Of a stretch of 64,000 bases of DNA, positions 26,928 to 61,197 are shown piece after piece (positions within the stretch are counted from its first letter, which is position 1; each line of letters starts with the position of its first letter). Below the pieces are notes generated by a model. That model saw only the letters and a list, made by a program, of their open reading frames with translations, was not told the DNA's origin and ran no database searches. Source of the stretch: Clytia hemisphaerica (taxonomy: Eukaryota; Cnidaria; Hydrozoa; Leptothecata; Clytiidae); the NCBI GenBank assembly GCA_902728285.1, contig CACVBU010000492.1, positions 872,787 to 936,786 of the forward strand. Reading direction: 5' to 3'. A program made the position numbers and the translations under genes.

Positions 26928-29900
26928 ATGAATTGGTTGAGCAATGTTTACATCTTTGGCATTATTTGTGCAACATTTAATGGCTTTTCTGTGGAAGCTG
27001 GTCAAGCTAAACCCGGTTAGTAAGCTGCGTAAGCTGCTGACTCTTTAGTGAAGAATATGACAAAGGTTTTAAAATATAATTTTTAAATCTATTTGATACA
27101 CATAATTTCGAAAATTTGAAAAGTGTGTTTCAATTTCTAATAGTGGAAGGTTGATTTAATGTTCAACCTCTCAATGGTTACTCTTCCCTTGAAACACCCT
27201 CCCTATTTTGGCGATTTACGAACCAATAACTGAATGTTTAAACTATGAATGTTTATTAATGTAGCAAATGTTCCAGAGAAACCAGCATACGCGAAGGAAG
27301 TTGATGATTTAGGTTTGAAGATCGAAGAAAAGGGGAAGGAGATCGATCGGCTTGGTGCGCAAATTGATCAAGGCAGTGATGATATTGAGAAATCTATCGG
27401 TATTTTTACTCTTTTGACTTGCTATATTCTAAGCAAAATAAACTATGTATTCACCTCTGATTAAGAGCAAAATTAAGATGTCATCATAGGTAGCGATTAT
27501 GGTCAAATAAGGTCCTCAGCATTTTGACAGATATTATTTATAGTGTTGACAAGACTCTAAAAGTAGCATACATAAGGAAAACAAGAATATGTTATTCTTG
27601 GCCATTCACATAGTTAAGTGAAGATCTGGTAAAAATAATCTCCATTGTTTCAACATCATCATTATAGATGCACACATGAACGATGTGGACAGCCCAGTTG
27701 CTAGGCAACGAATCGAAGATCGAGGGAAAGATATTGATGCTCTCAGTGATTATATGGACCGAGTGGTGGACCAAAAAGGTATTTGAGATTGGATTCTTGT
27801 TGATACTACGTTTGTTGTCAGAAAGGTTTCACTGGAAATCGTGACCAGTTTACGTGCCATACTTTGTGCAATTCTCTAAAACTAAAGCCTAAAAGAGAAA
27901 TCAATGGGGGAAACTAACCCATACTAGGTCGTTTTGTGGAGAAATATCGAAAGAAGCACCTTAGGGTCACCTTCTCGCACTCTTCAGCGCGAAACTGAAG
28001 AGTGTGTAGAAAAAGCACCCCCGAAAGAAGTGGAAATGATTCAATATCAAATTAAACATGGAAATCTCTCTTAACTTTAGAACAACCAAAATAGCATGTA
28101 AATTCCGTTTTCTTAAGGGCCAGGCTGTGTTAATGAATTTTCTGAAAGTTAATCAGCATTTTGAATCTTTTCACAGATGCAGAAATGGATGAGCAAGTAA
28201 CGGGTACAAAACATTCAGTAATGGAGAACGGAACAGACGTCGTCCTTCATGTTCGAGAAACGCCAATGGATCGAATGATGCGAATGATGGATGAAAATTG
28301 TACGCTCAAAAACCCTATGTCATATCTAATATTGAGTATTGGATGGATTATAAAAAACAATATTTTTATACAGAAATTCTTGATGCTTAACTTTTGCAGT
28401 TGTTAATGTCAACTTAATTTAACACTGTTCCTTTCAACGTTTTGAACTTATATTCGACCGCTCTCGTTTACTAACAAACAATTTCTTTTCTAGCAAAACG
28501 TGTTCAGAGTATTGGCGACTCCATCGAAAAAGACACAGACAAAAGAAACACCATTCCAAAGGTACACGAAAGATTGCTGAACAGCAAAACAAATCTAAGA
28601 CGTGATTCCATACAACTGGATCCCAACGACGCCGATAGTCGCATAGCGGTGCCAGTCACTCAAACGAAACTGAACAAACTCCTCATGTTTTATTATATCA
28701 AAAAGCGATATCCAAAACTTGTCAATCATTTGATTGATACTGAATCAGTTGGTAAACTACCCAGCGCTGGTGTTACGGTCAATCTCAATAAAAGCATCAA
28801 TGCATTGGAAGTTCTTAGTGATAAAGAGCGTTTCAAGAATGTCACCAACATTGCAGAAGGTGAAGATCTTACAGGAAGCGCCAGACAAAAAGATCATAAA
28901 GAACCCGATCCTAACGTGTCAAAAATCAGTGAAAAACAATTTGATACTGTAAAAAGTATTGCATCAGGAACGTTGAAGGATAATGAGATCGATTCTATTA
29001 TGTCCAGATTGGTGGACACGGAGGTGAACGGTGCAGATAAGCAATCACATTTTGAATCGTTAAATATTGACCTTGGTGAAGAGGGATCCTCCAATAATGG
29101 GATGGAGAAAACATCTTTAAGTAAAAAACTAGGTCAGGAAACTTCTTCGGGCAAGGAGTCAGCTCCGGTTAAATCAGATCTGGACGTTGATAAGATATCA
29201 TCCAAAGATACCACAGCTGCTGTGCAAAACACTGATGTAATTGAAGATATTGCAAAGTCTCCATCGCAAGAGGCAAAAGATGTTTCTACGAAAGGCAATG
29301 TCAGAGTTGATGGCAATAAGGATGAAGATAAAACTTCTTCTTCGAAATCTGAGGTGAATATTTCGCAGAGCAAACTTTCTTTAGATAAAGAACAGAGCGG
29401 AGAAAATTCAAAAGTTACTGATGGTCCGACCAGTAAAGAGGAGAATATTTTGAGTTCTGCCAAAGGTTTATTGAAAGATGTTGAAGACTTGGAATCATCT
29501 TTGAAAAACGAAGAACCACACTCACAGAAATTCATTGAAAACACAAATGAAGGTTGTGAAGGCGTTAGTTGTATGACGAAAGAACTTGTTACTTTGTTTG
29601 ATGAGAATTACTCCAAACGACAGAAGTCCCAAGCGGAGGAAAATAATATTGTCTCCAAATTCTCGAACAATGCTGGTTCACATTCAGAAGAAACAATGTT
29701 ACCAAGACCTATCCCTGGTGCTGAAGAAAGTATGGGAAAAAAAGATAAAGAATCAGTCACTGGTAGGAATGCACCAGTCGCTGCAATCACTAAAAGTAAG
29801 CAAACTGATTCAAAAGGACCACCACAATCTGCTGGTGACTCAATATCTAAATTCCATGATCAATCTCAATCCAAATCATCTCCGGAAGAAGAGTTAGACT

Positions 29901-30059
29901 TGTTTCCAGGGTTCAAGGTCAACAGATACATTCCCGAAGAAGTGACAGGACAAACGAGAAAGGGTGGAGATCCTTATACAAGTATTGGGCATGATTCAAT
30001 TCGACATGAACATGATCATTCGAGTGTTGTGGCAAATAAATACTACGATAAAAGCATAG
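26928..30059 (+). other. N-terminal part of the giant gene: signal exon, three small exons, one 522-codon exon
   Basis: Exons 1-5. Exons 2 and 3 share a short repeated pattern (DDLGLKIEEKGKEIDRL; RIEDRGKDIDALSDYMDR), so they look like duplicated coiled or amphipathic cassettes. Exon 5 (28494-30059) is the only long exon. It starts with a more ordered stretch (TQTKLNKLLMFYYIKKRYPK) and continues as a Ser/Lys/Asp/Glu-rich, probably disordered linker before the His-rich cassettes begin with HEHDHSS. Confidence 0.75.
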
Positions 30060-33000
30060 GTAAGTTTGTACCATATATTTCCCTTTCGAAGCCGTGGTAG
30101 AATTCACTCGCTTGAATGAATAAGAACCATTTTATTCCTGATAACACTACTAGTCCAGTAGCGTGGTGGGTCGACCGATATAAGGGTGATAAACTGGGGA
30201 GGCATTTTCCAAAGCTGGTATTTTGGCGCCACTTTTATCAAGGAAAAATACACGAGCTTCAAACTGCTAAAATACTTCTGGGAAAAAGTCTACCAAACTA
30301 CTATCTTAGTCTAATCCAAGGCTTCACGTTACATTAGACCAGATCGTCTTTCTCGAAAATTTCGAGAATGAAACTACTCGAGCTTAGTTAAGAAAAATAT
30401 GAAGTTTAAGTCTAAATTTTGATAAGGAGGGATTAAAAGTATTCTTATGGAAGTTTTCATTATTATTTTCTTCATGCTTAAAATCACAGATTTTTGTAAA
30501 GCCCGAAGGGCTAGATGGTGTGCTTTAAACTTTTCCAAGCAAAAAAAAGTTAATATCGCAAAAGATATTGTTGATTTTGTAGCTATTGAAAAGAAGCTTC
30601 TGATTGGTCAAGCGCTGAAATCATATTATATTATCACGTGACCTAGGTAGGATTTCCTACAGAACCACGGCACTAGTTCTTCATCTTAATTTTCTCTCTT
30701 TCAAAGATTCTGAACTAGACAGTTTCCATGGCGGAAATATCGGTGAATGGATGTCATCACATTGGGGACATGGAGAAGTTGGTCACCCAGGGCAACATGA
30801 ACATGGTCAAAGTGGGATGCACGATCACCGGTACATTGGTACGTCTTTCTTTGTGTCTTACAAGAATTATTTAACCTGAAATTTCGGAAGTAATTTCGAT
30901 ATGGGACTTGATAGATATGCAAGATCTTTCATTTTTGAACAATGATAAAGTCGTCATTGAAGGGTTAAACATCTTGGGAAAACCCGGCGAAGCTTTTTAA
31001 AAGGAATAACAGTTCTTAAAATGTAGTTGTTTTATTAATAATAGCAAGAGAAGACATATTCAAGGTTCATATTGAAGGTATCAATACCTTCATTTATGTC
31101 AATGTAAGTTACCATGAACATAACTTTTTAATCGATGTTACCGTAGGAACACACAGTGGTGAAGATGCAGGAGAACATTTACACTATGGTCGCCATCATG
31201 GAACAGATCATCATGGGAACCATGGCTACGGTGGCTACGGCGGCTATGGTAGCCATGGTTATGGAGGCTATGGGAGCCATCACGGGTCACATGGCAACGG
31301 TCATGGTCATGGATATGGTAACTATGGCAGCGGCTACTATGGTGGAAGTGGTGGCCATTATGGACATGACGGTGGATATTTGGGACATACGGGCCACCAT
31401 ATGGAAGGAGTAGGTCACATGGACATGCATCGGGAGTTTTCACACGAAGGAGGAGGGCATGGTCAAGACCATCACATGCAAATGGTTGGTGGGTATGCTG
31501 GTGGCATCGATGGTGCATCCTACGGACATCACCATATGGACGATGTAGTCCTGAAGAAAGGTTTGCGGTTCTATTGCAATAGCTTTACATTCGTATGATG
31601 GCATAATCGTGCAACGCAGTGATATAAGAGTTTTTAAACCGTGGCGTAAAACGAAGGAGTGGAATACCTAAATGACATGAATAATATTTCTTTGATATAA
31701 AAGCATCAAAATTAGAAATTACCAGTCAAAAAAGGTTTTCAATCTGAAATTTCAATTCTAGGTGATAAAATCAGCGAAGAGCATGACTACATGATCCATA
31801 GCATGCCAGATCTGCACGCTGTTCATTTCGGTGACAACATCATGAATGCTATCCCTCACAATTTCCAAAAGATTGCACAAGTAGAAAAGGAGCACAAACT
31901 TCACGAGAAAGAAGCAAAAGAACACGAAAAGATGTTGAAAGAGGCGTTGGAAGGTAAACAGAAAGCCATGCATAAAGAAAAAGAGAAAGGACATCATGTA
32001 GAGCACGTGGAAGAGGAACCACATGGTCATTTAACCGATGGAGGTGGCTTTCACCATCAAGCAGGTTCGTCAGTTTTCTTTAATTTCAAAAGTGAGGCTT
32101 TTAAAGATAAAGATAAATGAACTTAAGAGGTGAAGCTTAACAAACTGTAAAACGGACAACATTAAGCCCTTAAAATCTTCATCTTTGTTTACAAGGCAAA
32201 AGGCAAAAACTGTACGCTTTGACGAAAGCCAAAAGGTCTAGAAGATGGGAATACAGAAAACTTAAAAGTGTAGAGGCAGCAAATGATAAAACAAGCGAGA
32301 TGAAGCGACTGCTTAGGTTGTAAAAATAATATTGATATTCTTATGAGAATGTCGACCATAATTAAAGATTGGAGTCTTTACCCAGTCAAAAAGTGCTCTC
32401 AGTGCTCCCAGCCAGAATGAACGTGACGTAACATACCCTTACCTTTGAACTGACTGAAAGGAAATCAGATTCCCCATTGAAAAAGTACTGAAAAATTCTT
32501 CCGCTTGCAGGCCATTTGTACGGTATGCATGGATACAGTTTCAACATGCACAATGACGCATCACATCTGGAGGATGAGACGTATGGTTCATCGCAAGAAC
32601 AAGAACAACATCATCATGAAGACCATGATCATTTTCATCACCCTGGTTTCCATGGCAGCACTGAATTCATTGGTGATGAAGTCGACTTCGAAAGAGGTTG
32701 GTAAAGCTATTGTACAAGGAAACGGGCCTTCCCTCGCAACAATTAAATTATACAATAGAAATGAATGAACCAGCGTACGTTAGCGTTGACTAATGCACTC
32801 TATTTGAATTGCTGTGTTGTAAAGTAAATTCTACTCCGTGAAATGTGTACGGATTGTATAGTTTGAATTCGTTTTTATGATAAGTTTGATGGAATTAGAA
32901 AATAATCTACTTCACGATATTCAAAATAAGGGTAGATATTCAGTGCCGTAGACACAAATTCTATTTTAGGGGGGCCCTATATGTTTAGTATCTAAGAAGG

Positions 33001-36000
33001 CCCCACCATGGTTGGAATTTTTTTGGACTTTATACCTTCCAGATTGGCTAAAACTGCCTCTCCGAAAGTCAATTTCAGCAAAAGGTAAGTAGAAATCGCG
33101 TGCATATTATTAGTATATTTTATTAAGACTATTTTCTTACATAGTCAGTGCGTTAGTTAGTTATTTCGTTCTGTGGCACACGTCGGCTCAACGTAACAGT
33201 GGTAAAAAGAGGGAAGAGATTAAGCAAATAAATTAAATAAGTAAATATACAGACAACGTTGACATTTACCGTTGGAAGCATTGAAATTTAATAAATCATT
33301 TCATGTAATATATTTACAGGTCGATATAGGGAGAGTGCATTGGGCAGTAAAGTGATGGACCATCAATACATGGCACGTATGCCACATCAAGATGAGCACA
33401 TGGGTGGTGAAAGCATGCATCACCATCATGAAACGAGTAGAGGAAATCACCACGTGACCAACCAAAACGAACACATGTCTTCGGAGCACGAAGGAGGTTG
33501 GTCCCCAATATATCGTGATTTTATTTTACGAGAGGTGAAAAAGAGTGTCCAGGAATGTCCACTTTTAGATTGTAACCCGATTTTATTCATCTTCAAAAAC
33601 TGACGTAATTATTTAGCAGAGAAGATAAAGGGGGCTATGACAATTTTTCCAAGCCTTAGGGAGGTACGACCATTTTTGACTATCTTGGGGGTTAGGTTGT
33701 GATAGTTTTTCTAGAGGAAGGTTGAAATCTTATTGGATACCTTGACGTGTTGAGTAATGTCTTATTATAGAATAACTTTTTAAATCTTTTCTACTTTCTA
33801 CCCACAGGTCATCATCATCATAGACATCATCACCATATGGGCCACCATATGGGACATATGAGTCACCACCATGGTCATCACAACCAGCAATCAGCAATGT
33901 TCAAAGGTAAACTACTTTGAAATCAAGTGCACAACATACGAAAATTGTTCAAGTTTGAGATTTTTTGTGAGAACCGTAAATTTTCAAACATGCTTCGTAC
34001 TCGTATCATATTGACAAACAATTGAAAATTTTCCCATTCAGAGTCTCAGTTTTCGCTATTTAGAATTGACAGTGATTTTAAGACCTTGTTTTTTTCTTTC
34101 ATTCATAAGGTCAAGAGAATCAAAGCGAGCAAGGAGAATCTGGTCTTCATGATAATCACCACCAACATCATTACCATCATCACCACAAAATACATCGTGG
34201 TCATAATTACAATCAATGTCCTGGTTGCGATCAAGATCTGATTCATCAACATCATGGTTCCAAGAAATGTTGCAATACTTCTATCCCTTATGTAAGCATT
34301 GTATGATTCAGTACTTGTAGCTTTCATCTCTATTCCACCTTTAATTTCATATAGACTATTGAATTTTGGGAATTATAACCATGATATTGAAGATAATACT
34401 ATCTTTTGGCATCAACAAAAATCATTTGACGATGGAGAAGCTAGAATTGATTGATCACTATTCGTTTGACTTTTCATCGGCCATAAAAATAAGATAATTG
34501 CCAAAGTCTCGCCGAAGTTAACCATAAACTAATTTTTACTGATATACCCTTCCATTCGCTAAAATTAGTCCTCGTCAAAATTATTTTTTCCTGTCATTTA
34601 TGCCCCTTGCTAGAATTAGTTCCCTCAAAGTATCTCATAGCAACAATAAAATCATGAAACCAAGGAAACTTTCTCCATACAGAACACACCATCAGAAGAA
34701 GGGTGCAGCCCATGTAACGGGACCACAACATTAACAGGTGCCAAGAGAGAAGCAGAAGGGTATGTTGAGAAGGAAGGAGGAGATGTGGATGAGCATGATG
34801 ATCACGATATCGATACTGGGGACGAAGGTGAGAGCATGTTTCACGCTAGGCTACTTGCATCCCCAGAATTTATATTGATATAGGATATATCAAAGCACAT
34901 CAGAGGGGATACATGCAGCCTAGTTTCACGCATTTACGTGTACACTCTTTTCTTTATAAGAGTAACGAGGCACAAAAACGCAATATGAACAATATGAACA
35001 ATTAAAAGTACAAAGTCGATCTTCAAATTGCTAAATCTTCAGCAAATGTTAAAGACACCTAATGACAATTGTTGTATTTCGCTTCAACATTCAGGCGATG
35101 ACGAGATGTATCACGACGATCACCAACATCACCAAGGTGAAGGAGGTCATCATGAAACAGAACCACAGTTCGGTGAAGAGCATCATAAACCGGAAGAACA
35201 CCATCCTGGTGAATTACATAATGGTGAAGGACAGGAAGGTATTCATACACTTCTTTCATTTTGTTGGTGGAAATTTCTCTCAGAAACCACTCCCCCAAAG
35301 GGTAGTATAGTATAGGGAGGAGAGAGGGGTGCCTCATTAAATCACCATGAGCTCTGGGTTGGATCACATAAACATCAAATCCAGTTGGGGGAGTTATCTT
35401 TTCGAGTTTTTGAGAAAAGTGTTGACGACTTTTTCAAGACAACGTCAGCCCAAGTTCATAAGGTCCATTTTTTGAACCTCTGCAACACATCCGTCGTTTG
35501 ATAAGGGGATGGAGTATACCTTCTTTTGCCTATTTTGAACTACCCAACCAATAACACAGACAATAATATTACTCATTTCATTTTCAACAGGCAAGGATTT
35601 CCATGGAGGTGACGGTGATGAGGAGAAAGACATCAAGGATGAATTTCACAAAGAGATTGCCAAAGAACAAGGACATCATCATTTCATCCACCATGAACAG
35701 AATGAACACCTTCATCACCACGAATTCCCAATCGTTCATATTGATCACGAAGAAGGCGTCCACCAAGACCCTGGTAAGTTAAAACACAAAATGGAGCTTC
35801 TTTATTTTCCTACCCTACACGAGTTGACGAGGGTTTTCGCCGTCCTTATGAAAGCAGAAAGAAATACTGAAGCAAAGTAATAACGTCAAAACTTCCAGGC
35901 GCATGCAGGCTAAATTGTAGCGTGTGTCACTTTGATGATAGAGACCCCCCCCCAGCGGTTTGCGTGATGGCGTGATTGGGACTTTATTCTTGCGTGATGG

Positions 36001-39000
36001 CGTGATTAGGGATTTTTTTTGGCGTGATGGCGTGATCAAGATTTTGGCGTGATGCGTGATAGGACAAAAATTTGAGGCGTGATGCGTGATTTGGGCTATT
36101 TTTCGCTATTTTTTGCGTGATGACAAATTTTAGCGATTTTCGTGATGCGTGATGGAGAAAATCTTTTTACGTGATGGCGTGATTAGGGGTGCCGCTGGGG
36201 GGCCTCATGATAGCTTTGGATCACTGGAAATAAATGTAAAAATTGCAATTGCGGACCAATCCAAATTAGTTTATTGTTTCTTCCAATAAGATAGATTCTC
36301 TGGTAGATAGATTTAAGAAGACATTCTTATTGCCAACCTAGATGTCTCATTAAAAATAAAAAAACCTTCCTTCTCGTTTCACCAGGAGAGACAGTTCACA
36401 ACGAGCACGAGATGATTCAAAACCAGGGAACACATTCCCATGTGCATGAACACCCACACCAAGAAGTAGACTCTGATGATCGCATTGTTCCACCAGAGGT
36501 TGTTCATGAAGGACCCATCTCACCTCTACCTGTCTTCCAGGGAGAAGAATTCCATGGCCCTGGAATCCGAGACACACCAGATGTCCACTTCGAAGATGAA
36601 ATGGACACCAGTCGTTATCGGCATGGTAGAAGTGTGGAAGAAGTCAAACAAAGTGAGACTATTGTTTCTTAGTGATTCTCGGTTTGATTAGCTACAGACT
36701 TTGGTGTAGCAGTCAGTCTTTCGACTCAAAGGTTTTTGTATTTAGAGGTAGCGGACGACGCAACTCTTTCTCACTGGTTTGATCAAGTTTGCACAACATT
36801 TCTTCATTGAAACAATGCCCACTCTTCTCAACATTAGATGCATTCAATTTAATATTGTTTTTGAAATTCCAGATTCCATGACTACCAAAAAGACAGTAGA
36901 ATCACCAGGTCAGACACGCCAAATCTTCCTAATGAGCAGTGAACCATACGTTGCTAAGCGACAAGATCCATATGGTTCGATTGGTCACTACCCAGAGATG
37001 CATATGGATATCCATAAGTTGCATCACCATGAAATACATTCTGACCACGAAGGACATTTTGGTTGCAATGGATATGGTGGTGGTTACGGGTGGTGTCCTG
37101 ATGGCATCGGTAAATACTCATTTATTTTATATTAGCTGATTCTTAAGAATTTTGAAGAGGAAGAATATACCTAACAGACAACAATACTGCCTTTCAAAGG
37201 AATTTAAAGGAAGAATAGACGAATTGTGGAATTATGTATGCAATTATCAAACTTACTTACGTCATAATCAAAAGACAAAACAAGAAATAACTGCAATTCA
37301 TGATACACCCCTATGTCATAAATAGAGCCGAAATCTCATCACGGCGAGAAACATACACCAAAACTTCAGCCCACTTCCAAATTGACTTTGATCCCATCCC
37401 AAGTGGATAAAAAGACACATGAAAACTATCCCACTTTTTTTGAGCTGGTAAGAATAGAATTTCTAGCTCCCCACTGTGGAAAAAGATTTCACCGGGGCAT
37501 TGAAACAGGTGTGTCATAATTTTTTTATAAATTGATCCTGTAAACATGGACATGATTTTGGAAAAGTTCTACTAGGAAAATGTCCAATTCTAAGTGCAGC
37601 GCCATACGTCTTTTAGTTCATATAGAAAGTTTCTCCGGGTAATACAGTCTTTAACCTTTGATACTTTTTTAAAAAGGCTTTGGAGGACATGGTCACCACC
37701 ACAACCACCACCATCATCACCACCGTGATCACCATGACTACGGTGATGAAGATTACGATGACGATTATGGACATCACGATTACCACGATGAAGATGAAGG
37801 ATCGGGAGATATCGAAGAAGAATATCATCATTCACCACACCATTTCCATGATGGAGAACGGAGAGGGAAAGTGGAAGGTTTGTTAGACGTTAAAGTTAAA
37901 ACATTACATTACGTGAATAATGCGCCATTCCATTTTATACCAATACAGGGGGAGGGGTTGATGAACATTTCCAGGGAGTCTAAGGAAAGCTCTTTTCCAG
38001 GGTTTACATTACAAAGCAACGCCTAGCTGTATCTTCTTCTCCAGGGGTAAAAAGAAAAGTTATCCTTTTATGAGCGGAAAGTGATTAATAATTATTCTAG
38101 ACTGATTTTAGCTCCACCTTAACTTTATGAAGAAGAGCTTTTCTGAGGGTTCTTTTAAAACTTTGTCATATTTCCAAGGGATTCCATTTTCAAGAATCTT
38201 TTTGGTTCGGCTCCCTCTGTACGGATAACGAGGGAAAAGCTTGATGTAATGTTTGCCGATAAACTTCAGTTTCTTAAAGGCACAACTCGCAAAACTATCG
38301 TTTCTTTGACATATTGTTAGGTCGTGATGCAACAGATGATGAGCACAGTAAGAAAAACGGGACATCAACAATACGAAGAGTATACCATGGCATACACAAC
38401 GACACTAAAGGTTCGTCAACACTTCATTACACGTGTCCCTCATACAATGCTAACGTTTTATTGATATAGACCAGTTACCAAGCTGGCAAACAACGTTGTT
38501 CCAACGTTCATTTAACGTTAAATGACCGCTAAGCGCTTGGAAGAAAGGAGTCTAGGGAGTTTATTGTACTAATATTGCTAAATCAAATTTTCGTGCAAGG
38601 TTTAACCTTAAGGTGAAAAAACAACTTTCTATGAGTATAAAAACTCGTCTAAAAACTCACATAACAAAGGGATTGACGCATAAGTTACTGACATGCAGAT
38701 AGCTGATGAACACTGCTTTCACTTTCCAGTGGTGCACATTCACCGTGAAATGCCCAAACAAGACGGTAGTGATGATTATATGGAGCACGACCAATTCATT
38801 GAACCCCCTTCTACTGAACTTCAATCATTCAATGGCCATATCCTAATGTCCATACCACATTTCGAAGAACAAATTGCTACTGAACCAGAGGCTAATGATC
38901 TTCATAATAAAACTTCTAAAGAAGGTACGTCATCTACTACAGTCTTTTATATATCTTTTGCAAAAGTATTTGTCACTGAATGCACACCAACCCTTTCGTC

Positions 39001-45000: not shown

Positions 45001-48000
45001 AAGAAAGCCACTTTGCAAAGATCAAAAGCCAACAAGCGAAGTAAGAAATTCGCCAGAAGGAAAGCTACAGGAAAAAGAGAGCATACAAAGGCTCTAGTCA
45101 ACACAAAACAAAAAGAGAGGGAAGATCGTTTACTTAACAATTTGATGAACGATGAGGATATTTTACCGAACAGTGAAGAAGAGAATGAACGAAATGCTCA
45201 ACCTCCTCCCCTCAATGAAAGACAACCTGATGAAGGTGACCAAGAAGTGCCTTATGATTTGTCCATCATACAAAATGAAGCACGAGGGAGAACTGATGAC
45301 CAAAGTAAGAGTATTTAATGACGTAGATAAAAAAACGATTTGTAACTTTTTATTTCATTCGCTTTCTGGAGCTTAGTACGTTCATCTGTTATGACGGGAC
45401 AGTATTGTTAACAGAGACTGGAAATCAAGTTTACTATGCTCTTTTCGTTTCACTCCTGAGCTTAATTCAAATAATTCTTTTACGTTTATCAAGGTCGACC
45501 GTCTGCTAAGCGAACTAGCACCAATAAAAAGAACGTTGTGACTAGCAAAAGCAAGAACAAAGAAACAAATCCCAACAAGATCAAAAGGAAATCAAAACTT
45601 CATCACGTCATTGCTGGCAAAAGACACCAAACAACAAAAACACAGAAATCTTCAAAACAAGCGGAGAAATCAGAGAAGGATAAAGAGGACAATGTTTTTG
45701 GTAGTTTAATAAATGACCAAGATATCATGCCCATGACGTATAATGAAGCAAATGCTCATACTGGTGAGTACTGCCACCAATTTACTATTAGCCCGGGGGG
45801 GGCACTTATAGCTTTTTGATAGACTGGATGGCATTGATAGGTGACCTGGTGTAATTTGGCAGACTCCATTTTTTGGCTATGTTTGAGTTGGTAGAAATAC
45901 ATGCCACTAGATCCAGTCCCTTTTTGGCGAAAAACAAACAGAAAACTATGACCAAGGGATTGATTTTTTTCAAAGTTTGGAGGTATTTTTGAGTTTTTAT
46001 TATCGTTTCGTAAACTTCGATGGTATTTGACAGGTTTCGAAGATTAAGATTCAATCACAGAAATAGTTGATCTAGGTGTTCATCAAATTGAACCGAAAAA
46101 CTTATTATCTTCTTTCAAGGGGAGGAGAAGTATGCAGCGGATGCAGATGCACCACCACCATCCAATGAAGTCGAACATGAAGCTGTTGAGGGCGGCGAGG
46201 GCGGTGAAGGTGTTACTTTTGATATGCCATCACACGATCATAGACATGATGTTGTAGAACAGGATCATTTTCATCACCTTAACGAAAGTATGAATTCGAT
46301 TAATTGTATCAGATGGAGTGTTTTGAAACAGTGTCAGTTTGATAAATAAGTATTCGTAATATTAGAAAGATTTCCACTTTGTGACTTAGACTTTAAACAA
46401 CGATATCTTGATTTTATTACTGATACGGTTTTTTCTACTGTGTAAATTAGGTGTACAGTCTCATGCCTGCTAAACAAATGAATGTTCCATTATGAGAAAA
46501 ACAACATTTTGCAGATGATTCTTTCAATCACATGCATTGTACGGTACCAGCAAGAAAAGAACATGAAGGGGGAAATATTATCATATTATTGGCCCAGCGC
46601 TAGCGATAGGGCCTTTCATTTGCAACTTTCCGTCCTCATCATCCCTTCCGCTGTCTGTCCGTCCGTTTTGGTAGAAACGGCGCTTAAAACCAGTAACACA
46701 CTTTTTAATTTTGCCGTCTGGAGAGGGAAAAGCTTGCTAAAGTCGGATACTGGCTATAAAAGATATATTTTCTGATTCCGCGCTCCTTCAAAACAATTTT
46801 CAAAACAAAACAAGATGGCAGTCGACAGTCAGGGACAGTCACCTTATTAGGAGACGCCTCCTGATTAGGAGACGTCTCCTGATTAGGAGACATGTAGGTC
46901 GCTTGGGGTCGCTTGATCAGGAGACCCGTCTCCTAATTAGGAGACATAAAACTTTGATCTCAATTTTAAGGGCTTTAGGCTTTTCCGCGCATTTTGAAAC
47001 TAGTTTTAATGGAAAGAGCAGCCTCGAATTGGTAAAGTTTTAAAAAAATTATCAAAATTTCTCGGTGCAATCGATCACAATCCTAATATAAAGCACTACA
47101 AGGAAGCCCCTCTTGATTTTTTTCATGTCCGCCATTTTTCTTTTTGAGACGCTTTTGTTCAGAAGACAGATTCTTACTTCTGATTGGTTCTTATGGATTA
47201 TTAGAATTGTGATTGATTCCACCGGTGGATTTTTCTAAAAATCACCATATGGAATCAATTTTTTGTGCTCTTTCCATTGGGAGCAATCAAATCATGCGCA
47301 GTTTGCTCGTTCACGAGATAATTACACCCGTCTCCTGATTAGGAGACGTGAACCTCCGAAACCTCCTGATTAGGAGACGGGTCTCCTAATCAGGAGGCGT
47401 CTCCTAATAAGGAGACTGTCCCTGACTGGTCGAAGCGAGGAGGTTGATTCATACTTTCTTGTACATTTTCTTTGCTTTAGTGGTCAAGAGACTTTCAAAC
47501 CAAAGAAATTTTGTAATGATTTTTCTTTATAAACCTTTTTCAACATTCTGTCTTATCTTATAGTCTTTGCTCAAGTTTTAATAAAGTTTTATGAGTGAAA
47601 ATTCTACCTAAAAATCACCTTCATTTTTTAGCTTCTTGTTTTCAAAAAGATTTTATTTTTAGGAAATAATGGCTTCCGATATAGAAATAAATAAACTGAA
47701 ATGCAGCTGATGTGTAAAATTGAATAAGATTGGAACTTTTTTCTTGATGCGACACAAGAAAACAGTCACTTCTGGATATGTCGCTGTTTTACCAAAACAA
47801 CAAACAGTCAGTGGTGGGAACGACCCTGGACACCGCCGTACATTGTACGGTGTTGTACGGTGGGTGTACGGTGGGTACGGTGGGGTGTACGGTGGATTTC
47901 GAGTTAACCTATTTCACCACCGTACCTACCAAATTGATTTCAGTTTCAGAAAGCATGCAAATTTTTAGATATTCAACCATGGTCGGACTTACTGAAAAAC

Positions 48001-51000
48001 TTCTAAGTCGGAAAAACTTTCTTTGGTACATTAAGTTTGACCACGGAACTTGTCTTTCAGGATCGCATTCCCACCGTACTATTGTACGGTGGGAAATTTA
48101 ATGTGCAGTGGGAAAATGCACGGTGTTTTCAAAGTTAACCTTTAATTCCCACCGGACATTTAAATCAAGCCCCACCGTACAACACCGTACAATGTACGGC
48201 GGTGTCCAGGGTCGTTGGTGGGACGTGTGCGTGGTATGATTTTCAAACTCAACACATAATTATTACAAGTTAACTGATTCTGGAATTTGGTAATGGACAC
48301 TAAAATGGAGCTCGTGTGTAAATTCGAACAAGATTGGAACTTTTCCCATGATGTTACGCGTGAAAATGGTTATTTCTGGTTCTGTCTCGTTTGACGATTG
48401 GTGGCTTGATTTTTCAAACTCGACACAGAATTATTTCAAGTAAGCTGATTATGGAATTAAGTTATTGGAGACTAAAATGCAGCTCAATGTGTAAATTTGA
48501 ACAAGATTGGGACTTTTTTCATGATTCTACGTATATTAAATAAAATGGTCTTTTCAAAAATGGTCTCGACTGCGGTCGAGCAATGATGATGATGATGAAA
48601 TAAAATGGCCATTTCTGTTCTGGATCTGTCGCATAGACCTTTTTTCAAAGAGGACGTCCTGTTGAATAATTATGTAGTCCAGCAGAAAAACAATGATAAA
48701 ACCATGCATAATTATTACAATATGCATGATACAGTAATTATGCATGGCTTTATCATTGTTTTTATGGCTGGAGTACATAATTATTCAACATGACGTCCTC
48801 TTTGAAAAAAGGTCTATTAAACGATCGGTGGCTTGATTTTTCAAACTCGACTCACATAATTATTTATTGTTTAAAAAGTATAAACTGATTCTGGAATTTG
48901 TTAATGGACACGAAAATGCAGCTCATGGGTAAATTTGAACTAAGACCTTTTTTCAAAGAGGCTACCCTGTTAAATAATTATGTAGTCCAGCAGAAGAACA
49001 ATGATACAACCATGCATTAATTATTACAATATGCATGATACAGTAATTATGCATGGCTGTATCATTGTTTTTCTGCTGGACTACATAATTATTCAACAGG
49101 GTGGTCTCTTTGAAAAAAGGTCTATTGAAACATTTTTCATGGTTGCAAACGCATGAACAGTGAAAATGATCATTTCTGGATCTGTCACATTAAACTGTTA
49201 ACTCACATTAACCACATGAATTTTATTGGCCTGGATATGCAGACTATAAACTATTTCACCGTCTAGTTTTTTAAAGATTATTTTTCTGGTTTACAGTCTG
49301 GTCCAACTAACATGCCTGCATGGATATTTCTCCCTGCATATGTGAGTGCACCTAATTGGTTAAAAAGCGCCCACTCACTATATATTTGCGGGTATTTTTT
49401 ATATTTTTCTATGGGCGCGCATAATTTATGGAAATTTTCCACCTAGGACATTTTTATTCCAACCCCCCGCCGCTTATTAAGTTTTGAGATTTTTTCCAAC
49501 CTCTCCCCCCCGCTTATTCCAAACCCCCCCCCCCCCGCTATTAGGTACCCGAGAGTATTCAACCGTGAACCTGCGCCTGTAGACCCGGTTGGAATGGAGA
49601 CCATTCAATAAAGTTTCAAGCGTCTAACTATTGAGAAGTACCGCGGTGACTTTGAAAATATTTTTCCTGTCTTTGATCAACATGGTCATACATTTGCTGT
49701 TTTGCACGCTCGTTTTCAACACGTTACTTTTCGCTGGGCCTTCACGCCCAACGGGCTTCTTGTTTTGATATTACTTTTCAGGATTACCTCAGGTCGGCTT
49801 AAACCAGCAGTTTGGTAATTTCCATGATTTCCACGATGCAATTGGTTTCTATGACGATCGTAACACAAACATTCATCCATCAATCCCTTTCCCAATGGAA
49901 CAACTGGCTCCTGACAGTCCCATTGTGCAAACACCCTGCACCAAGAAAGATTGTCTACCTACTGTTAAAACTGCTAACAAACTGGAGTTAAGTCTTGATA
50001 ACAGTACTGTACCCTTGAATAAAACATTAAATGTCAGTCAGAAGAATCAAACATCGAAAGCAAAAGAGAAGAACGTTACAAAATCTGTTTTTCAAGAGCC
50101 GAAGTATGGTTGGAAAAAAGATGCCATTGATTTGGTACAGCTTGTTATGAAGAAGGGTATGCTTTCGAACACGTGTAGTCATAAAATTAATAATTAATAC
50201 ATGTAAATGACTTGATTAAAAGAACCCTTTTCTCAGCTTCACCTAGTTCTAGGCTTCATCCTAATATAACTATTACCGTAGTTCCGAAATCAAACAATTT
50301 CGAATCAGCAGGCCAAAATCATAAAAAGGCGATTCTATTGGTTAGAAATGATGTCTCGCAATGAAAATCCAATACAACAAACACTTAACAAAATGCCGAG
50401 CAGCAGAAACATACCAACATTCTCGGACTTTTATCATAAAATAAGCAATCTTTAATCTTTAAGGCTCCTTAAAATCATACCGATTAAAGTAAACAAAATA
50501 TGACACTTCTTTACAGATCAAGAGGTATGGGAGAAAGACCACCACCATCGATATGAGCATGAACCTTCTGAACCGTATGAAGGAGAGAATGGATCGGAAG
50601 ACTTTGCGGAGCACGATAGTCACATACTCATACCAGACATCAATGTGGATCGTTTCAATCAACACGTTCATCCAGCTATTCCACATATCCAACAACAGCT
50701 TGAAGAAGATGTAAGATATTCTTCAGTTTTAACGCGACAGGAGGATTGGATCGGGGCTTTCCTAGGTTAGATAACGTCAGAATTTTGTACCTATGAACGC
50801 ACCGATACAAGAACTCAAACATTAGATGTCATTAGACCTTGTTAAACTCGACCAAAGTCCCCTTCAGGCAAGAGTTGATTAGTGCAGCTATAAGATGGTT
50901 CAGGGTGGTTCTATTTTAGTATAAGTGAATCTTCATATTAATCAAGAATTAAGTGTTCTACAGTGAAACCCTTTAAAATGCATACGTGCAAATGCTGAAT

Positions 51001-54000
51001 CATAAACACAGAGAACAAGCATAAAAAAATCTTTCATTTTGTTCAAACGTTCAGTACCACCATTACCACTGGCCACATCACCACCACCATTATCACAACA
51101 ACCACGATCACCATGGTGATGGAAAGGAAGGTGATAAAAAGAAAGAACACAAAGGTATGATCGTGTTTTCCTTGATTGATGAAGATGTATTTAGGTGATG
51201 AAAAATGGTCTTAGACAATTCTTAAAGCCAATTTGTCAATCAGAAGTGTACAATCAACATGGTAGTAAGAAAATAAAGATCCCTAAGGAGAAACCGTCAC
51301 TAAGACTTAACTATGAGCCAGTCAGCCATATAATTAACGAAATCTTTTCGTTCCATTGGACAGAACACAAAGAGCCACACGAGGAGCACATGGAACATCA
51401 TCATCATGATCTTCAACATCCAGAACCTCAACATCCACAAGATCATGATGAACATCGCATGGTTCATGTTCATCCTCCAAGTCCCTGGTTCATCAAACCT
51501 AAAGGTGAATGATAGATTCTGTCTTTAGCGAAAAAACACCAAGTTAAGTTTGACTGAAGTCTAGTTTGATAGTAGCGACGTGACACGTAGTAGTAGAAGA
51601 AAAATTAAGGACATTAATATATTTATCATTATTTTCCTAACTGACACGCAATGCTACTCCAGCCTCTCATTTAATCTTATTTGGATGTTACGGATATCAG
51701 ACTTTTGCTTTGTTTGTTTGTTTGGTTGTCCGTTATTCTTCTATGAACAGTAGAATGTAGATCCGTAGAGATCTTGCATCAGATTTTTCATGATTTTATT
51801 CTATTGGGATTCTAGCATTGATTTCGATAGTTTCTCTTCAATCTGCAATTTATTTACAGTTACAGTTGAAAGGTATATCTTATTTTTACGATCAATCATT
51901 GACAGATCAAGCGATAGGTGAACTGATCAAACGTCATCACCATGGACACGGTCATGGACACCACAACAGGCATCATTGTGATTGCGATGAAGAAGATGAC
52001 GAGGAAGATGAAGATGAGTGTTGCGAACAAAGAGATCACTATTATGGATTCGAAGGTGACTGATTAAAAGATAAAGTTGATTAACCGAACACTTTTAAGG
52101 ACTGATGAATTAGCGAAAAGTTTTGACCTGCTATTGTTGTCAATATATTTCCGAACAGCAGGTTTAACCAGCCTCAACTAAAGAACTATAACATCGTATA
52201 TTCACGTATAATTGTTTTTTTACACGAGAACAACCGTCTTGACTTTGAATACTTCAAAACATTTCATTTCCCTACTTATATGGAAAGTCGTTTATAATCC
52301 GTGTAATAAAGTAAAAAGGGTGTTATGATATGATAATACGATAACTATTACGGGATAATATATACCAGTTTGTATAAACTAAAATTTGTCCCTTCCACCA
52401 TTTCTGCTTATTTTACACTACGTCTGAACTAGTCTTCTAGCATGCTAAAATGAACGTATTGCAACTTAAGGTGAAGACGGATCGAATGATTTCTCCAACC
52501 ATCACATTCACATCCACGAACCTGACCCAAACCTACACCGTTTCAACCAACACATCCACCCGGCCATTCCGCATTTGTACGAACAACTTGAACATGATCC
52601 ATATCAACCACATTATCACATTTCTCACCGACATCATTGGGCTTTCCAACCTGACCACTACAACAAGAAAGATGGTACGTTTAACCTTTCATTTCAGATA
52701 CTTGTTATACAATTTCAGAAAAAAAACCACAATTTAGTTTACAGAAATAAAAGTTGACTTTTGAGATCAGAGTTTGGCAAAAAAGACAACCAAAATTTCT
52801 CTTTCTGTCGATTCTTGTAACTGCCCATGTCCACAACGAGTCTCACTATCAAATAAAACAAAATAAATGTCCTTTCTTGGTGAGGTACACGCTTTTTTCT
52901 TTATAAGAATAGTGTAAATCCGCTTTCATCATGGATATTCTTAACTTTTTTGGGAAAATCATCCTAAAATATTCTTACAGCATTCTTAGGTTAGGATCCT
53001 AATTGACAATTTATAATTTAAAATGGTCTAAAAATGGCAGTCTTAGCTTGAGTAGAAAAATTCTATGATGGTTATATTCTTAGCATATTCTTAATTTTTT
53101 GGCCATTTTCATCATGGATTTTCATCATTTAGTTATAACAATGAACCCATATTACACTTAGCTCCATCATTCCCAGTAATTTTTCATCCACAACTATTCT
53201 TCCAGGTAACGCCGGTGGCGAAGGTCAAGGCCATGAATACATGGGTCATTTAAAAGAACATCAACATTCGCAAGATCACGACGAAGATCGATTGGTCTAC
53301 ATCAACCCTCACCTACATCATTATGGTAAGAAGTTCAAAGTTGGAAGTTTATTGATATTTCCCGAATCGTCAATTTATCTGAACAATGATTTTGAACAAG
53401 CATTTCAATAAAACTTCTTTCAGCTGAAACGGTGTTTTTTTTCAGAGGTCGACGGATACCGACATCACCATGACGACGACGACGATGACGACGAGGAGGA
53501 CGATGATGAAGGTCAGTAAAATTTCTCTTTGTAGACCTCGTTCCAGAGGGAAGGCTTCATTACGACAAACTTATTCAGTGAGTAGGGAACCCCGCATCCA
53601 TTGGTAGTAAAGAGGCAGTTTCTTTAGAACCACCGAAAAAAGAAGAGGTTTTGAATTTAAGATCGCGTATAACTTTTGTGGATGGATGCAATCTCTATGT
53701 CTTCAATTTTTTAGATGATGAAGGTGATGGACGAGATAAAAAGAAAAATGGAATTCAAAGACAAAAACCCGATACCAGAGGTGAATAATACTTATAGTTT
53801 AAACAATTAGCGACAAGAAATTTACAATAAAGCACTTAGTTCTTGACAATTTATTGAGATGAAACATCATTCTGAGACAAAATTATATAATGGGTGAGTT
53901 AGATATCCTGGACTTCCAAATCTTAGTACCTGGATATCAAGTTCAAAAACCGAATATTGATTTCCTTTTCCAGATTTGAAGACATTCAACCACCATCGTC

Positions 54001-54812
54001 AGAAACGACACGTGCATCACCACGGCTTTCGACACCATTATTGTCATTCCTACGATGGTTGTCACCATGGTGACGGTGATGATGACGACGAAGGTGATGA
54101 AGAAGACGGGTATCGACGGACGACAGGTCGTGATGTGTCGCATTTGAGTTATGAAACTGAACAATATGGAAGAGATATGCAACATGATATAGCAGAAGAA
54201 ACACACCATGTGGAAGATGTGGGAGATGCTATTGAAAACACAAGTAAGCAAACAAAGTTTGTATTCGGATTTTGTATACTTTTGGATAAGAAGATTTTCC
54301 ACCATTTTTGCATGTTAAGACTCGATTTAAAGACGTTTATTAACTACGTCTTTCGGAGGCATCTAGAAAACAACAAGTCAAAAGAGATCGAAAAACAATT
54401 AACAATTCTTGCAAATACAGACCATATGAAAACAAACAATTGTATATGAAAATGGAATCAGAAAGTCAGTGCGACTGTATAAAGCTCACTTTAACTTTGT
54501 TTTACTTTAACCATATTTAACAATGACAAACTTTTTAACTTTCCAGTCAACGCAGGCATAGCACGTGTTAAACACCTTGGTCACGACATTGAAGCACCTG
54601 ATTATGATCGGCGAGGACATTTCTATCCGAACGTTCACGAAGAGGACATCGTGGAGGAAGTGGAGGAGCGTTTCCCGCATGTCTCGCAACGTGATCTGAT
54701 CAACGCCGTCATCGAGGATCACTATCATCGGCGACAGGATCACCGACCGTTGGGAAGACCGGTGCACATTCACCGACATGAAGATGAAGATGATGATGAC
54801 GATGATGATTAA
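26928..54812 (+). CDS. Giant secreted histidine-rich modular protein (45 exons, 3,432 codons)
   Basis: Not a recognised family. Exons: 26928-27015, 27265-27399, 27668-27778, 28177-28299, 28494-30059, 30707-30838, 31147-31560, 31762-32064, 32511-32696, 33320-33496, 33808-33906, 34110-34291, 34683-34827, 35095-35238, 35591-35773, 36386-36652, 36873-37109, 37677-37877, 38321-38410, 38730-38924, 39169-39357, 39534-39707, 39841-40026, 40206-40388, 40627-40850, 41141-41359, 41600-41818, 42009-42201, 42397-42774, 42996-43316, 43555-43875, 44981-45304, 45494-45763, 46120-46287, 49782-50156, 50517-50710, 51055-51154, 51364-51504, 51906-52055, 52471-52674, 53206-53325, 53446-53511, 53715-53780, 53974-54243, 54547-54812. 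All use GT-AG and every phase agrees; nearly all introns are phase 1. The start was chosen because it encodes a signal peptide (hydrophobic core about residues 7-20). The protein is rich in His, Asp, Glu and Gly with few cysteines (CPGC, CDCDEE, PCxKxxC). It ends in an Asp run and TAA. His clusters suggest Zn/Cu/Ni binding; an extracellular matrix role is inference. Whether one transcript spans all exons is untested. Confidence 0.82.
31147..31560 (+). other. Gly-His-Tyr-rich exon of the giant gene
   Basis: Exon 7 encodes 138 residues with HGYGGYGGYGSHGYGGYGSH-type repeats and GHGHGYGNYGSGYYGG. The composition resembles the Gly/His/Tyr-rich proteins of polychaete jaws and squid beaks, which bind metal or are cross-linked. 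The resemblance is compositional only. Its donor (GTTTGC) is weak but its phase fits. Confidence 0.7.
35945..36203. mobile_element. Intronic element packed with CGTGAT motifs
   Basis: CCCCCAGCGG (35949-35958) and CCGCTGGGGG (36192-36201) are inverted ends. Between them CGTGAT occurs about 15 times, mostly as GCGTGATGGCGTGATT pairs, all on one strand. It lies in the intron between exons 15 and 16 of the giant gene. No ORF. Confidence 0.6.
40627..41818 (+). repeat. Triplicated exon with introns (exons 25-27 of the giant gene)
   Basis: Exons 40627-40850, 41141-41359 and 41600-41818 encode near-identical modules of about 73 residues containing HHLPRPLF, IHTPQPHHPDNN, HLHPALPYP and PCxKDQC. The intervening introns are alike (both carry CAGTCAGTCCATGATA-like and ATAAAGTGA phrases), so exon and intron were duplicated together. 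The internal junctions are phase 0, unlike the rest of the gene. Exon 26 and 27 begin identically (VISPVHPAHEGLPIALRPH). Confidence 0.85.
42397..45304 (+). repeat. Quadruplicated Lys/Arg-rich exon with introns (exons 29-32)
   Basis: Exons at 42397, 42996, 43555 and 44981 share KPLVNTNQKEREDRL, NNLMNDEDILPN, PPPLNERQPDEG and QEVPYDLSIIQN. The period is about 560 bases once the 873-base transposon at 44078 is removed. Introns share TTGGCTTTGTATTTATTGAA and CAACTGGTTAAAGATATA. Exons 33 (DNVFGSLINDQDIMP) and 23 (KLLNDDDILPEE) are older relatives. The basic N-terminal half contrasts with the acidic rest of the protein. Confidence 0.85.
44078..44950. mobile_element. Tc1/mariner-like non-autonomous element in a duplicated intron
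   Basis: Terminal repeats CAGGGTGATTAAAAAAAACC (left) and the inverse of a matching right end (ACCCTG at 44950) extend about 40 bases. TA flanks both sides (44076-44077, 44951-44952). The paralogous intron at 43525 reads CTTTCTACTAGAC, the exact empty site. The 873-base interior has no transposase ORF. Confidence 0.85.
46826..47428. mobile_element. Foldback element with GTCTCCTGATTAGGAGAC subterminal palindromes and GTCGA target duplication
   Basis: Terminal CAGTCAGGGACAGTC and its inverse bound the element, and GTCGA (46821-46825 and 47429-47433) is a 5-base target duplication. About nine copies of a near-palindromic CTCCTRATNAGGAG motif cluster at the two ends, four or five per side. The 603-base element has no transposase ORF. 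Confidence 0.8.
47820..48215. mobile_element. MITE with GTACGGTG-rich ends and 8-base target duplication
   Basis: Ends are ACGACCCTGGACACCGCCGT and its exact inverse, continuing through GTACATTGTACGGTGTTGTA. TGGTGGGA at 47812-47819 and 48216-48223 is an 8-base duplication, as for hAT or P superfamily elements. GTACGGTGG is repeated in the left end. It is 396 bases long with no ORF. Confidence 0.85.
48634..48816. mobile_element. 183-base palindromic MITE, copy 1
   Basis: AGACCTTTTTTCAAAGAGGA at the left is inverted at the right. Inner arms (AATAATTATGTAGTCCAGCA, AACAATGATAAAACCATGCA) also pair, so the entire element can fold into one hairpin around TATGCATGATACAGTAATTA. Confidence 0.8.
48942..49124. 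mobile_element. 183-base palindromic MITE, copy 2
   Basis: It has the same length and structure as the copy at 48634, about 130 bases downstream of that one's end, with scattered base changes. Its inner arms pair slightly better (TAGTCCAGCAG / CTGCTGGACTA). It is inserted at a different position of the tandem unit, so the two are separate insertions. Confidence 0.8.
49440..49555. repeat. Poly-C / CGCTTATTAA repeat copy
   Basis: CCACCTAGGACATTTTTATT, CCCCCCGCCGCTTATTAAG and a run of 14 C before GCTATTAGGTACCC. The same phrases occur in the PLB intron at 57.2-57.42 kb. Confidence 0.5.
49782..54812 (+). other. C-terminal part of the giant gene: short His/acidic cassettes and terminal exon
   Basis: Exons 35-45. 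Exons 35, 36 and 40 carry the HPAIP/HPSIP module (NQHVHPAIPHIQQQL; NQHIHPAIPHLYEQL) related to exons 25-27. Exons 37-39 are polyhistidine-rich (HHHHHYHNNHDHH, HHHGHGHGHH). Exon 42 is almost entirely Asp/Glu. The last exon (54547-54812) has a more ordered segment (EVEERFPHVSQRDLINAVIE) and ends in seven Asp. Confidence 0.75.
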
Positions 54813-60644: not shown

Positions 60645-60804
60645 ATTTCACACCAAATATGTTAGGGATTCTAATTAGTACTTTGTAACTGAAAGACCCC
60701 CGCAAGGAATGCTTTGTAAGATTTTTTGCTGTTAGTGTCAGCTTAGTGAAAATCTTTGAATCCTAGAATGTAGAGGTATAGTTCCCGAGAAATTCAAAAT
60801 ATCG

Positions 60805-61197
60805 ATGATGAAATGTAACGTCCCAGTCAAAATAGTGTTCACATTACGTAAAGTGAAACATTTCATGCCACCATTGAAAGAGCAAATTGAAAAAAGCCTT
60901 AAAAGCGGTGTAGTTTATAAAATTACTTGTCCATGCTGTCAGGCATGCTATGTCGGACAAACGAACCGGTACATGCTACAACGTTTAAAAGAGCATCAAC
61001 GCACATCTAGTCCAGTGGGGAGTCATCTTAAAACTTGCAATGTAAACATCACAATTGACGACATAATGATTCTCGCATCAACAACAAAATCAGAGGACTA
61101 TCTAATGACATTAGAGGCATTATCTATTCATGAAATACACCCGGGACTTAATAAAAAGGATGAGTACAAAAGCAGAATGCTAACAATAAAAATATAA
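60805..61197 (+). pseudogene. GIY-YIG domain, C-terminal end of a Penelope-like retroelement
   Basis: The 130-residue frame contains SGVVYKITCPCCQACYVGQT, the paired GIY and YIG elements of the nuclease with a Cys pair, then RLKEHQR and the C-terminal LEALSIHEIHPGLN...KDEYKSRMLTIKI seen in retroelement proteins. There is no reverse transcriptase upstream, so the copy is 5' truncated. The start codon is arbitrary. An A-rich end follows the downstream ribozyme-like motif. Confidence 0.7.

Follow-up and report, generated by a model that had tools for sequence, protein, structure and literature searches.

Does the + strand between positions 26,928 and 54,812 of the window analysed here (C342:872,787-936,786, a 64,000-nucleotide stretch of the genome of the hydrozoan Clytia hemisphaerica) encode a single giant, histidine-rich protein, and what would such a protein do? 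A sequence-only reading had proposed a long spliced coding chain over this region. We reconstructed the gene by dynamic programming, using a gene finder that combines splice-site weights with codon scores and makes GT-AG obligatory; the splice-site weights and the generic composition were taken from general knowledge. With generic weights and free ends, the locus scores 524.4 (47 exons, 10,626 nucleotides (nt)). Forty dinucleotide shuffles score 23.6 on average and never exceed 40.2, the reverse complement gives 49.3, and two other stretches of the window, each scored on both strands, give 51.8, 89.0, 12.5 and 44.5. As all controls lie at or below 89.0, chance is excluded: the gene is real, and the chain is found where it had been placed. 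The histidine codons are mixed (CAT 215, CAC 149), and the locus is therefore no microsatellite artefact.

When the start at 26,928 and the stop are imposed and the codon model is self-trained, the finder returns 47 exons and 10,650 nt, with a frame that is open throughout. Five edits separate this output from our refined model of 46 exons, 10,428 nt and 3,475 amino acids (aa), which keeps the imposed start and stop (Table 1). One 42-nt exon with a negative coding score was dropped, two doubtful 5' extensions were trimmed, and two exon ends (the end of exon 31 and the start of exon 33) were set to match the tandem copies; for exon 31, the grounds for the edit are its resemblance to units 1 and 3 and a frame that stays open across the entire chain. 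Leave-one-out coding scores were computed on the 47-exon model and sum to 1,109.5 before the edits and 1,106.5 after; exons 18, 20, 29 and 36 are weakly supported (4.5 to 7.1). The 45 exons and 10,299 bases counted earlier are thus approached but not reproduced: that model is one exon shorter between exons 13 and 26, where exons 18 and 20 are the weakest (4.5 and 6.9). The chain stops at 54,812 after a run of Asp, as had been read, and the freely run finder picks the same stop. G stands at position -1 in 34 of 45 donors, and a pyrimidine at position -3 in 38 of 45 acceptors.

Cassettes that begin and end in phase 1 dominate the refined model, as the sequence-only reading had it. Phase 1 accounts for 40 of the 45 introns, the other five being phase 0, and 36 of the 46 exons are 1-1. 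The finder has no bias towards phase 1, since on shuffles it places 186, 146 and 139 introns in phases 0, 1 and 2. Excursions from phase 1 occur at exons 12-13, 26-29 and 37-38; these are the runs previously numbered 12-13, 25-28 and 36-37, offset by one.

The predicted protein is rich in His (10.5%), Glu (9.6%), Asp (8.5%), Gly (7.6%) and Lys (7.1%), strongly hydrophilic (GRAVY, a hydropathy index, -1.32) and contains three acidic runs of 10-16 residues each. An HPAIPHxxQQL module is present in eight copies, in exons 8, 21, 26, 27, 28, 36, 37 and 41; a profile built from the same eight finds no ninth and gives the other six stretches scores below zero. The closest dispersed pair (exons 37 and 41) shares 62% identity across 42 residues (blastp), and exons 26-28 and 36 carry a CxxxxC pair downstream of the module. 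Exons 30-33 form a tandem of ~107-residue units, each with a basic head, a GKR and an acidic NDEDILP tail, and have diverged relatives in exons 24 and 34. The exon-exon blastp was run without composition correction or masking, so that poly-His matches mean little, and weight is placed instead on those of HPAIPH, NDEDILP and the tandem units. Composition, exon cassettes and duplicated modules together bear out a giant modular histidine-rich protein.

Among the tandem exons (26-28 and 30-33), the ratio of nonsynonymous to synonymous divergence (dN/dS) is 0.22-0.36 in eight of nine pairs and 0.69 in the ninth, youngest pair. These ratios are only approximate because dS is uneven, for some pairs exceeding the divergence of the introns (85 and 92% identical), and they indicate that the copies are under purifying selection and evolve as protein. 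The proposal that the gene grew by exon shuffling holds in one of its two senses: cassettes were duplicated in frame inside the gene (exons 26-28, exons 30-33 and the dispersed module). Import from other genes is at most hypothetical, the duplication being internal and six module queries matching no other place among the candidates scored. Searched against the whole genome (a 417-Mb assembly of 951 contigs), these queries match only within this gene among the best candidates scored, with 5 of 29 candidates matching for the exon 30-33 unit, 3 of 3 for the module of exons 21, 37 and 41, 4 of 4 for the module of exons 26-28, and 1 of 1 each for the last exon, exon 7 and the first 176 aa of exon 5. 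A search for paralogues over 100 kb upstream and 120 kb downstream returned only low-complexity His matches, and the gene is apparently single-copy.

A Pfam profile check agrees that the protein belongs to no recognised family, no match in the parts scanned rising above the gathering score. The best Pfam-A matches (E 0.031 and 0.049) are both below cut-off. Four spliced pieces were scanned that together cover 2,985 of the 3,475 residues; the other 490 come chiefly from exons 31-35 (~463), with a portion of exon 18 and a few residues at junctions. Exons 5, 27 and 36, an exon-8 frame and neighbouring frames were scanned separately. A sequence search of the PDB with the last exon only gave one match, at E 0.23, and no convincing relative.

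Two further features, added here together with the HPAIPH module to what had been read before, suggest how such a protein might work: dibasic sites and a reversal of charge. Eight sites fit [GAS]K?KR[QE], a motif defined after the sequence had been viewed; five remain when tandem copies are set aside, some of which may share ancestry, compared with a shuffle mean of 0.21, and this number is reached in 0 of 5,000 shuffles. Unselected KR occurs 21 times against a mean of 12.1 (reached in 13 of 2,000 shuffles). Cuts at the eight sites and at one KR before His would yield ten predicted chains of 107 to 752 residues. Cnidarian preprohormones carry GKR and KR sites and often give N-terminal pyroglutamyl peptides, according to PMC6909153; the protease class needed is therefore present in the phylum, and this protein is perhaps cleaved by a convertase. 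With textbook pKa values, the computed net charge after residue 25 is +118 at pH 5.5, +28 at pH 6.0, -80 at pH 6.5 and -230 at pH 8.1.

To account for these features, we tentatively favour a secreted, disordered polyelectrolyte precursor that is cut by a convertase, switched by pH through its His residues and associated with chitin in a matrix such as the perisarc. Exon 1 would provide the signal peptide, and a proprotein convertase in the secretory pathway would cut the KR sites to leave about ten products. The N-terminal one would be low in His, four would be basic/acidic and 107-119 residues long, and the remaining five would be His-rich, with lengths between 254 and 752 residues. In acidic granules, His would be protonated and the chains would stay soluble. 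On release into seawater (pH ~8), His would lose its protons, the net charge would reverse, and the chains, together with divalent metals and chitin, would condense into an extracellular matrix that hardens, for which the chitin-protein perisarc or the holdfast of the polyp stage would be the likeliest place. The model draws on analogy, not homology, and on three systems. In squid-beak His-rich proteins, deprotonation of His starts phase separation, and the coacervates are modelled as infiltrating a chitin scaffold (PMC6884462); hydroidolinan exoskeletons are described as chitin-protein (PMC5316283); and a stolon cell type of Hydractinia combines chitin-synthesis genes with repeat-rich proteins, seven of nine with a predicted signal peptide (PMC11876637). 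A limited literature search, at the level of listings and a few passages, turned up no pairing of hydrozoan perisarc with a histidine-rich structural protein.

A bolder form of this model would have one giant exon-cassette gene encode, in fixed stoichiometry, polycation, polyanion and poly-His chains that are released by a convertase and co-condense by charge reversal. This would amount to a one-gene composite kit for a cnidarian exoskeleton and, so read, would be unlike known invertebrate matrix proteins; we consider this form of the model unlikely. If the gene does make perisarc, it would offer a testable molecular entry to a widespread marine exoskeleton. If true, the model would also mean that a His pH switch known from squid beaks evolved independently, would provide a template for pH-triggered underwater materials, and would illustrate the growth of a giant protein by phase-1 cassette duplication within one gene.

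Several points weigh against the perisarc reading, and the first group concerns the limits of the gene. Run freely, the finder starts at 27,249 and omits exon 1, which has a leave-one-out coding score of -3.9 and weak adjoining splice sites. Of the signal-peptide start proposed earlier, what stands is a plausible hydrophobic ATG in the right phase at 26,928, which an unconstrained run leaves out. A scan of the + strand from 26.8 to 54.9 kb, limited to phase-1 donors, finds three hydrophobic starts, at 26,928, at 37,029 (in exon 17) and at 47,125, and exon 1 was retained because there are only these three. Exon 1 would supply a signal peptide, and the protein is likely secreted; no further membrane-like stretch is seen, the best 19-residue mean after residue 40 being 0.78. 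Translation from 27,249, the free finder's own start, would instead make an intracellular His-rich polyelectrolyte, and omitting exon 1 lowers the whole score by just 0.7. However, there is an in-phase hydrophobic leader a short way upstream, and the Cys pairs and convertase-like sites fit a secretory protein; we regard this alternative as very improbable. The number of genes is a related concern. When each of the 45 introns in turn is made the boundary between two predicted genes, the score shifts by no more than +2.4 (next-best cuts +2.4, +1.3 (after exon 35), +1.0 and +0.4), so coding evidence cannot separate one gene from two. A tandem family of at least two neighbouring genes, each with a start of its own, could occupy the locus, as a false join is invisible among symmetrical phase-1 cassettes; one possible boundary is the 3.5-kb, repeat-filled intron 35, where the cut after exon 35 falls and where the hydrophobic ATG with a phase-1 donor at 47,125 lies. 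Yet the only candidates besides the imposed start are this ATG, which sits inside an intron-35 element with 98% inverted ends (46,826-47,428), and the one within exon 17, and the module families span most of the length. Separate genes therefore seem to us unlikely, if worth bearing in mind.

The second group concerns function. Besides the after-the-fact choice of the KR motif, unselected [KR]R shows only a modest excess (30, where shuffles average 21.1 and 46 of 2,000 reach that number); the squid-beak motifs GHGLY, GHGxY and GAGFA each occur 0 times; Tyr makes up just 2.6%; and a protein of this sort could serve in many other secretions of hydrozoans. The vertebrate histidine-rich calcium-binding protein and plasma histidine-rich glycoprotein exemplify His-rich metal or calcium buffers, and a luminal or extracellular buffer would suit the alternation of poly-His with Asp/Glu runs in exons 11, 12, 14, 15, 19 and 38-45 as well as the three acidic runs of 10-16 residues. 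Our protein is nonetheless much larger than these vertebrate ones, exons 1-5 and 29-34, more than one-third of the chain, are His-poor, and no Pfam family appears in the parts scanned; such a role is improbable in our estimate. We give slightly more credence, still low, to a nematocyst component like Hydra spinalin or to a capsule-matrix polyelectrolyte: cnidarians possess nematocysts, and exon 7 is rich in Gly, His and Tyr, but there is no collagen-like stretch (the longest G-X-X run has 5 triplets), and the protein is vastly larger than spinalin. Spinalin is, moreover, seemingly confined to Hydra, according to PMC4195985. Least credible of all is a neuropeptide-type preprohormone cut at GKR sites. 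The GKR site type of cnidarian preprohormones (PMC6909153) does recur here, but the sites lie 107 to 752 residues apart instead of flanking many short copies, and the residues just before GKR vary between units.

Table 1. Exons of the refined model in window coordinates, with start and end phases in brackets. The predicted point of cutting is written as a slash; cut positions are predicted and numbered in residues of the protein.
Exon	Position	Strand	Features
1 (imposed)	26928..27015	+	ATG, signal-peptide-like MNWLSNVYIFGIICATFNGFSVEAG, ends in phase 1; free finder starts at 27,249 instead
2 (1-1)	27265..27399	+	Lys/Glu/Asp-rich; in part like exon 3
3 (1-1)	27668..27778	+	
4 (1-1)	28177..28299	+	
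5 (1-1)	28494..30059	+	521 aa, Ser/Lys/Glu/Asp-rich, low His; CxxxxC pair; SKR/Q, cut after 528
6 (1-1)	30707..30838	+	His/Gly-rich
7 (1-1)	31147..31560	+	Gly-His-Tyr cassette (G 32%, H 20%, Y 10%); 102-nt 5' extension about neutral in score
8 (1-1)	31762..32064	+	HPAIPH module copy 1 (NAIPH), then charged Lys/Glu/His
9 (1-1)	32511..32696	+	His/acidic
10 (1-1)	33320..33496	+	His-rich
11 (1-1)	33808..33906	+	His 50%
12 (1-0)	34110..34291	+	poly-His with CPGC and CC
13 (0-1)	34683..34827	+	CSPC; GAKR/E, cut after 1194
14 (1-1)	35095..35238	+	His 23%, acidic 32%
15 (1-1)	35591..35773	+	His 23%, acidic 28%
16 (1-1)	36386..36652	+	
17 (1-1)	36873..37109	+	VAKR/Q, cut after 1448
18 (1-1)	37326..37508	+	weak support, leave-one-out 4.5
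19 (1-1)	37677..37877	+	His 30%, acidic 30%
20 (1-1)	38321..38410	+	weak support, leave-one-out 6.9
21 (1-1)	38730..38924	+	HPAIPH module copy 2 (MSIPH)
22 (1-1)	39211..39357	+	short stretch like exon 42
23 (1-1)	39534..39707	+	GKKR/Q, cut after 1812
24 (1-1)	39841..40026	+	diverged NDxDILP module
25 (1-1)	40206..40388	+	
26 (1-0)	40639..40850	+	HPAIPH module copy 3, CxxxxC, tandem unit
27 (0-0)	41141..41359	+	HPAIPH module copy 4, CxxxxC, tandem unit
28 (0-0)	41600..41818	+	HPAIPH module copy 5, CxxxxC, tandem unit
29 (0-1)	42009..42201	+	basic; weak support, leave-one-out 7.1
30 (1-1)	42397..42774	+	tandem unit 1: basic head, GKR/Q (cut after 2283), acidic NDEDILP tail; 27% Lys/Arg
31 (1-1)	42996..43316	+	tandem unit 2, GKR/Q (cut after 2390); end placed as in units 1 and 3
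32 (1-1)	43555..43875	+	tandem unit 3, GKR/E (cut after 2497)
33 (1-1)	44981..45304	+	tandem unit 4, GKR/E (cut after 2604); start placed as in units 2 and 3
34 (1-1)	45494..45763	+	diverged unit, AGKR/H (cut after 2723)
35 (1-1)	46120..46287	+	acidic/His
36 (1-1)	49782..50156	+	HPAIPH module copy 6 (HPSIPF), CxxxxC; weak, leave-one-out 6.8; after 3,494-nt intron
37 (1-0)	50517..50710	+	HPAIPH module copy 7
38 (0-1)	51055..51154	+	His 39%
39 (1-1)	51364..51504	+	His 28%; 120-nt 5' extension possible; short stretch like exon 42
40 (1-1)	51906..52055	+	His, then Cys/Asp/Glu run
41 (1-1)	52471..52674	+	HPAIPH module copy 8
42 (1-1)	53206..53325	+	
43 (1-1)	53446..53511	+	acidic 67%
44 (1-1)	53715..53780	+	Lys/Arg 33%
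45 (1-1)	53974..54243	+	His/acidic
46 (last)	54547..54812	+	C-terminal segment, terminal Asp run, stop

Within the gene, intron 35 (3,494 nt) holds two elements with inverted ends, at 46826-47428 (ends of 48 nt, 98%) and 47819-48216 (46 nt, 100%). Intron 32, before exon 33, contains a further element at 44076-44952, whose inverted ends are long (136 nt, 76%); this intron measures 1,105 nt, whereas the parallel introns have 221 and 238.

On the strand of the gene and upstream of it, a VWD-like segment (recognised by eye) lies at -30.1 to -29.1 kb from the window start and a 3,651-codon Ser/Thr/Pro-rich open frame at -16.7 to -5.8 kb; the same Ser/Thr/Pro-rich repeat continues at 0.3-2.4 kb, and a cystine-knot domain is present at 6,099-6,662. 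With their joins predicted, the VWD-like segment, the Ser/Thr/Pro frame and the cystine knot look like one gel-forming mucin gene with 204-bp repeats at C342 ~842.7-879.4 kb. We considered and rejected a mucin of this kind as a description of the His-rich protein, which has no VWD or cystine-knot domain in the four Pfam pieces and only 15.7% Ser+Thr+Pro. Between the two genes, a Sulfotransfer_2 gene segment occupies 9,378-10,151 on the - strand (Pfam, 206.9 bits). Retroelement-like frames, judged by eye from translations, are found at 93.8-109.9 kb and at -56.6 to -52.8 kb from the window start. A GIY-YIG-like fragment at 60760-61194 (+) scores 18.2 bits with Pfam GIY-YIG against a cut-off of 22.6, and a second was seen by eye at 19817-20422 (-); both are possibly Penelope-like elements.

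Elsewhere in the assembly, the first 10 kb of the 14,551-bp mitochondrial contig C900 carry, on one strand, nad2, nad5, rns, nad6, nad3, nad4L, nad1, nad4, cob and cox1, with names assigned from translations and rns by Rfam. PMC4655093 describes medusozoan mitochondrial DNA as linear and the hydroidolinan blocks nad2-nad5, nad5-rns-nad6-nad3-nad4L-nad1-nad4 and cob-cox1 as collinear, and the gene order of C900 suggests a hydroidolinan hydrozoan. Trachylina, the second subclass of hydrozoans, would be excluded by this order. The one COX1 match reported is on C900, and its internal TGA reads as Trp under code 4. COX1 (C900:1-967) runs off the end of the contig, as expected if the mitochondrial DNA of this hydrozoan were linear and bore a second cox1 at its opposite end.

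How does the protein compare with known systems? Profilaggrin-type structural polyproteins are giant His-rich precursors whose repeated units are cut into structural chains; they differ from the present protein in being cytoplasmic, vertebrate and encoded by repeats within one huge exon. A minicollagen was rejected: the longest Gly-X-Y run here has just 5 triplets, where a minicollagen has a long run between Cys-rich domains. Hydra spinalin, likened by description only, is a hydrozoan protein rich in Gly and His; unlike our candidate it is tied to nematocyst spines and is small. The Shematrin-like and Prisilkin-like stolon proteins of Hydractinia are likewise repeat-rich hydrozoan proteins, mostly with signal peptides, but their defining feature is the XGnX repeat (X = I, L, V or Y; PMC11876637). 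Our protein shows no excess of such repeats over chance: it has 7, shuffles average 7.0, and 278 of 500 shuffles reach that count. With cnidarian neuropeptide preprohormones (PMC6909153), the protein shares KR/GKR sites and possibly a leader, the hydrophobic N-terminus here lying in an imposed exon that the free finder omits, and differs in not having the three or more short peptide copies, each ahead of GR/GKR, that mark this class.

The squid beak HBPs belong to a different phylum and are therefore analogous at most; our protein is far larger, much more charged and equipped with dibasic sites. The HBPs are disordered, as our protein probably is; both are built from modular repeats containing His, Gly and Tyr, and the HBPs have a His-deprotonation switch and associate with a chitin scaffold (PMC6884462). 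The known kind would be the disordered His-rich matrix protein, from which this one is apparently set apart by its polyprotein layout and its charge reversal.

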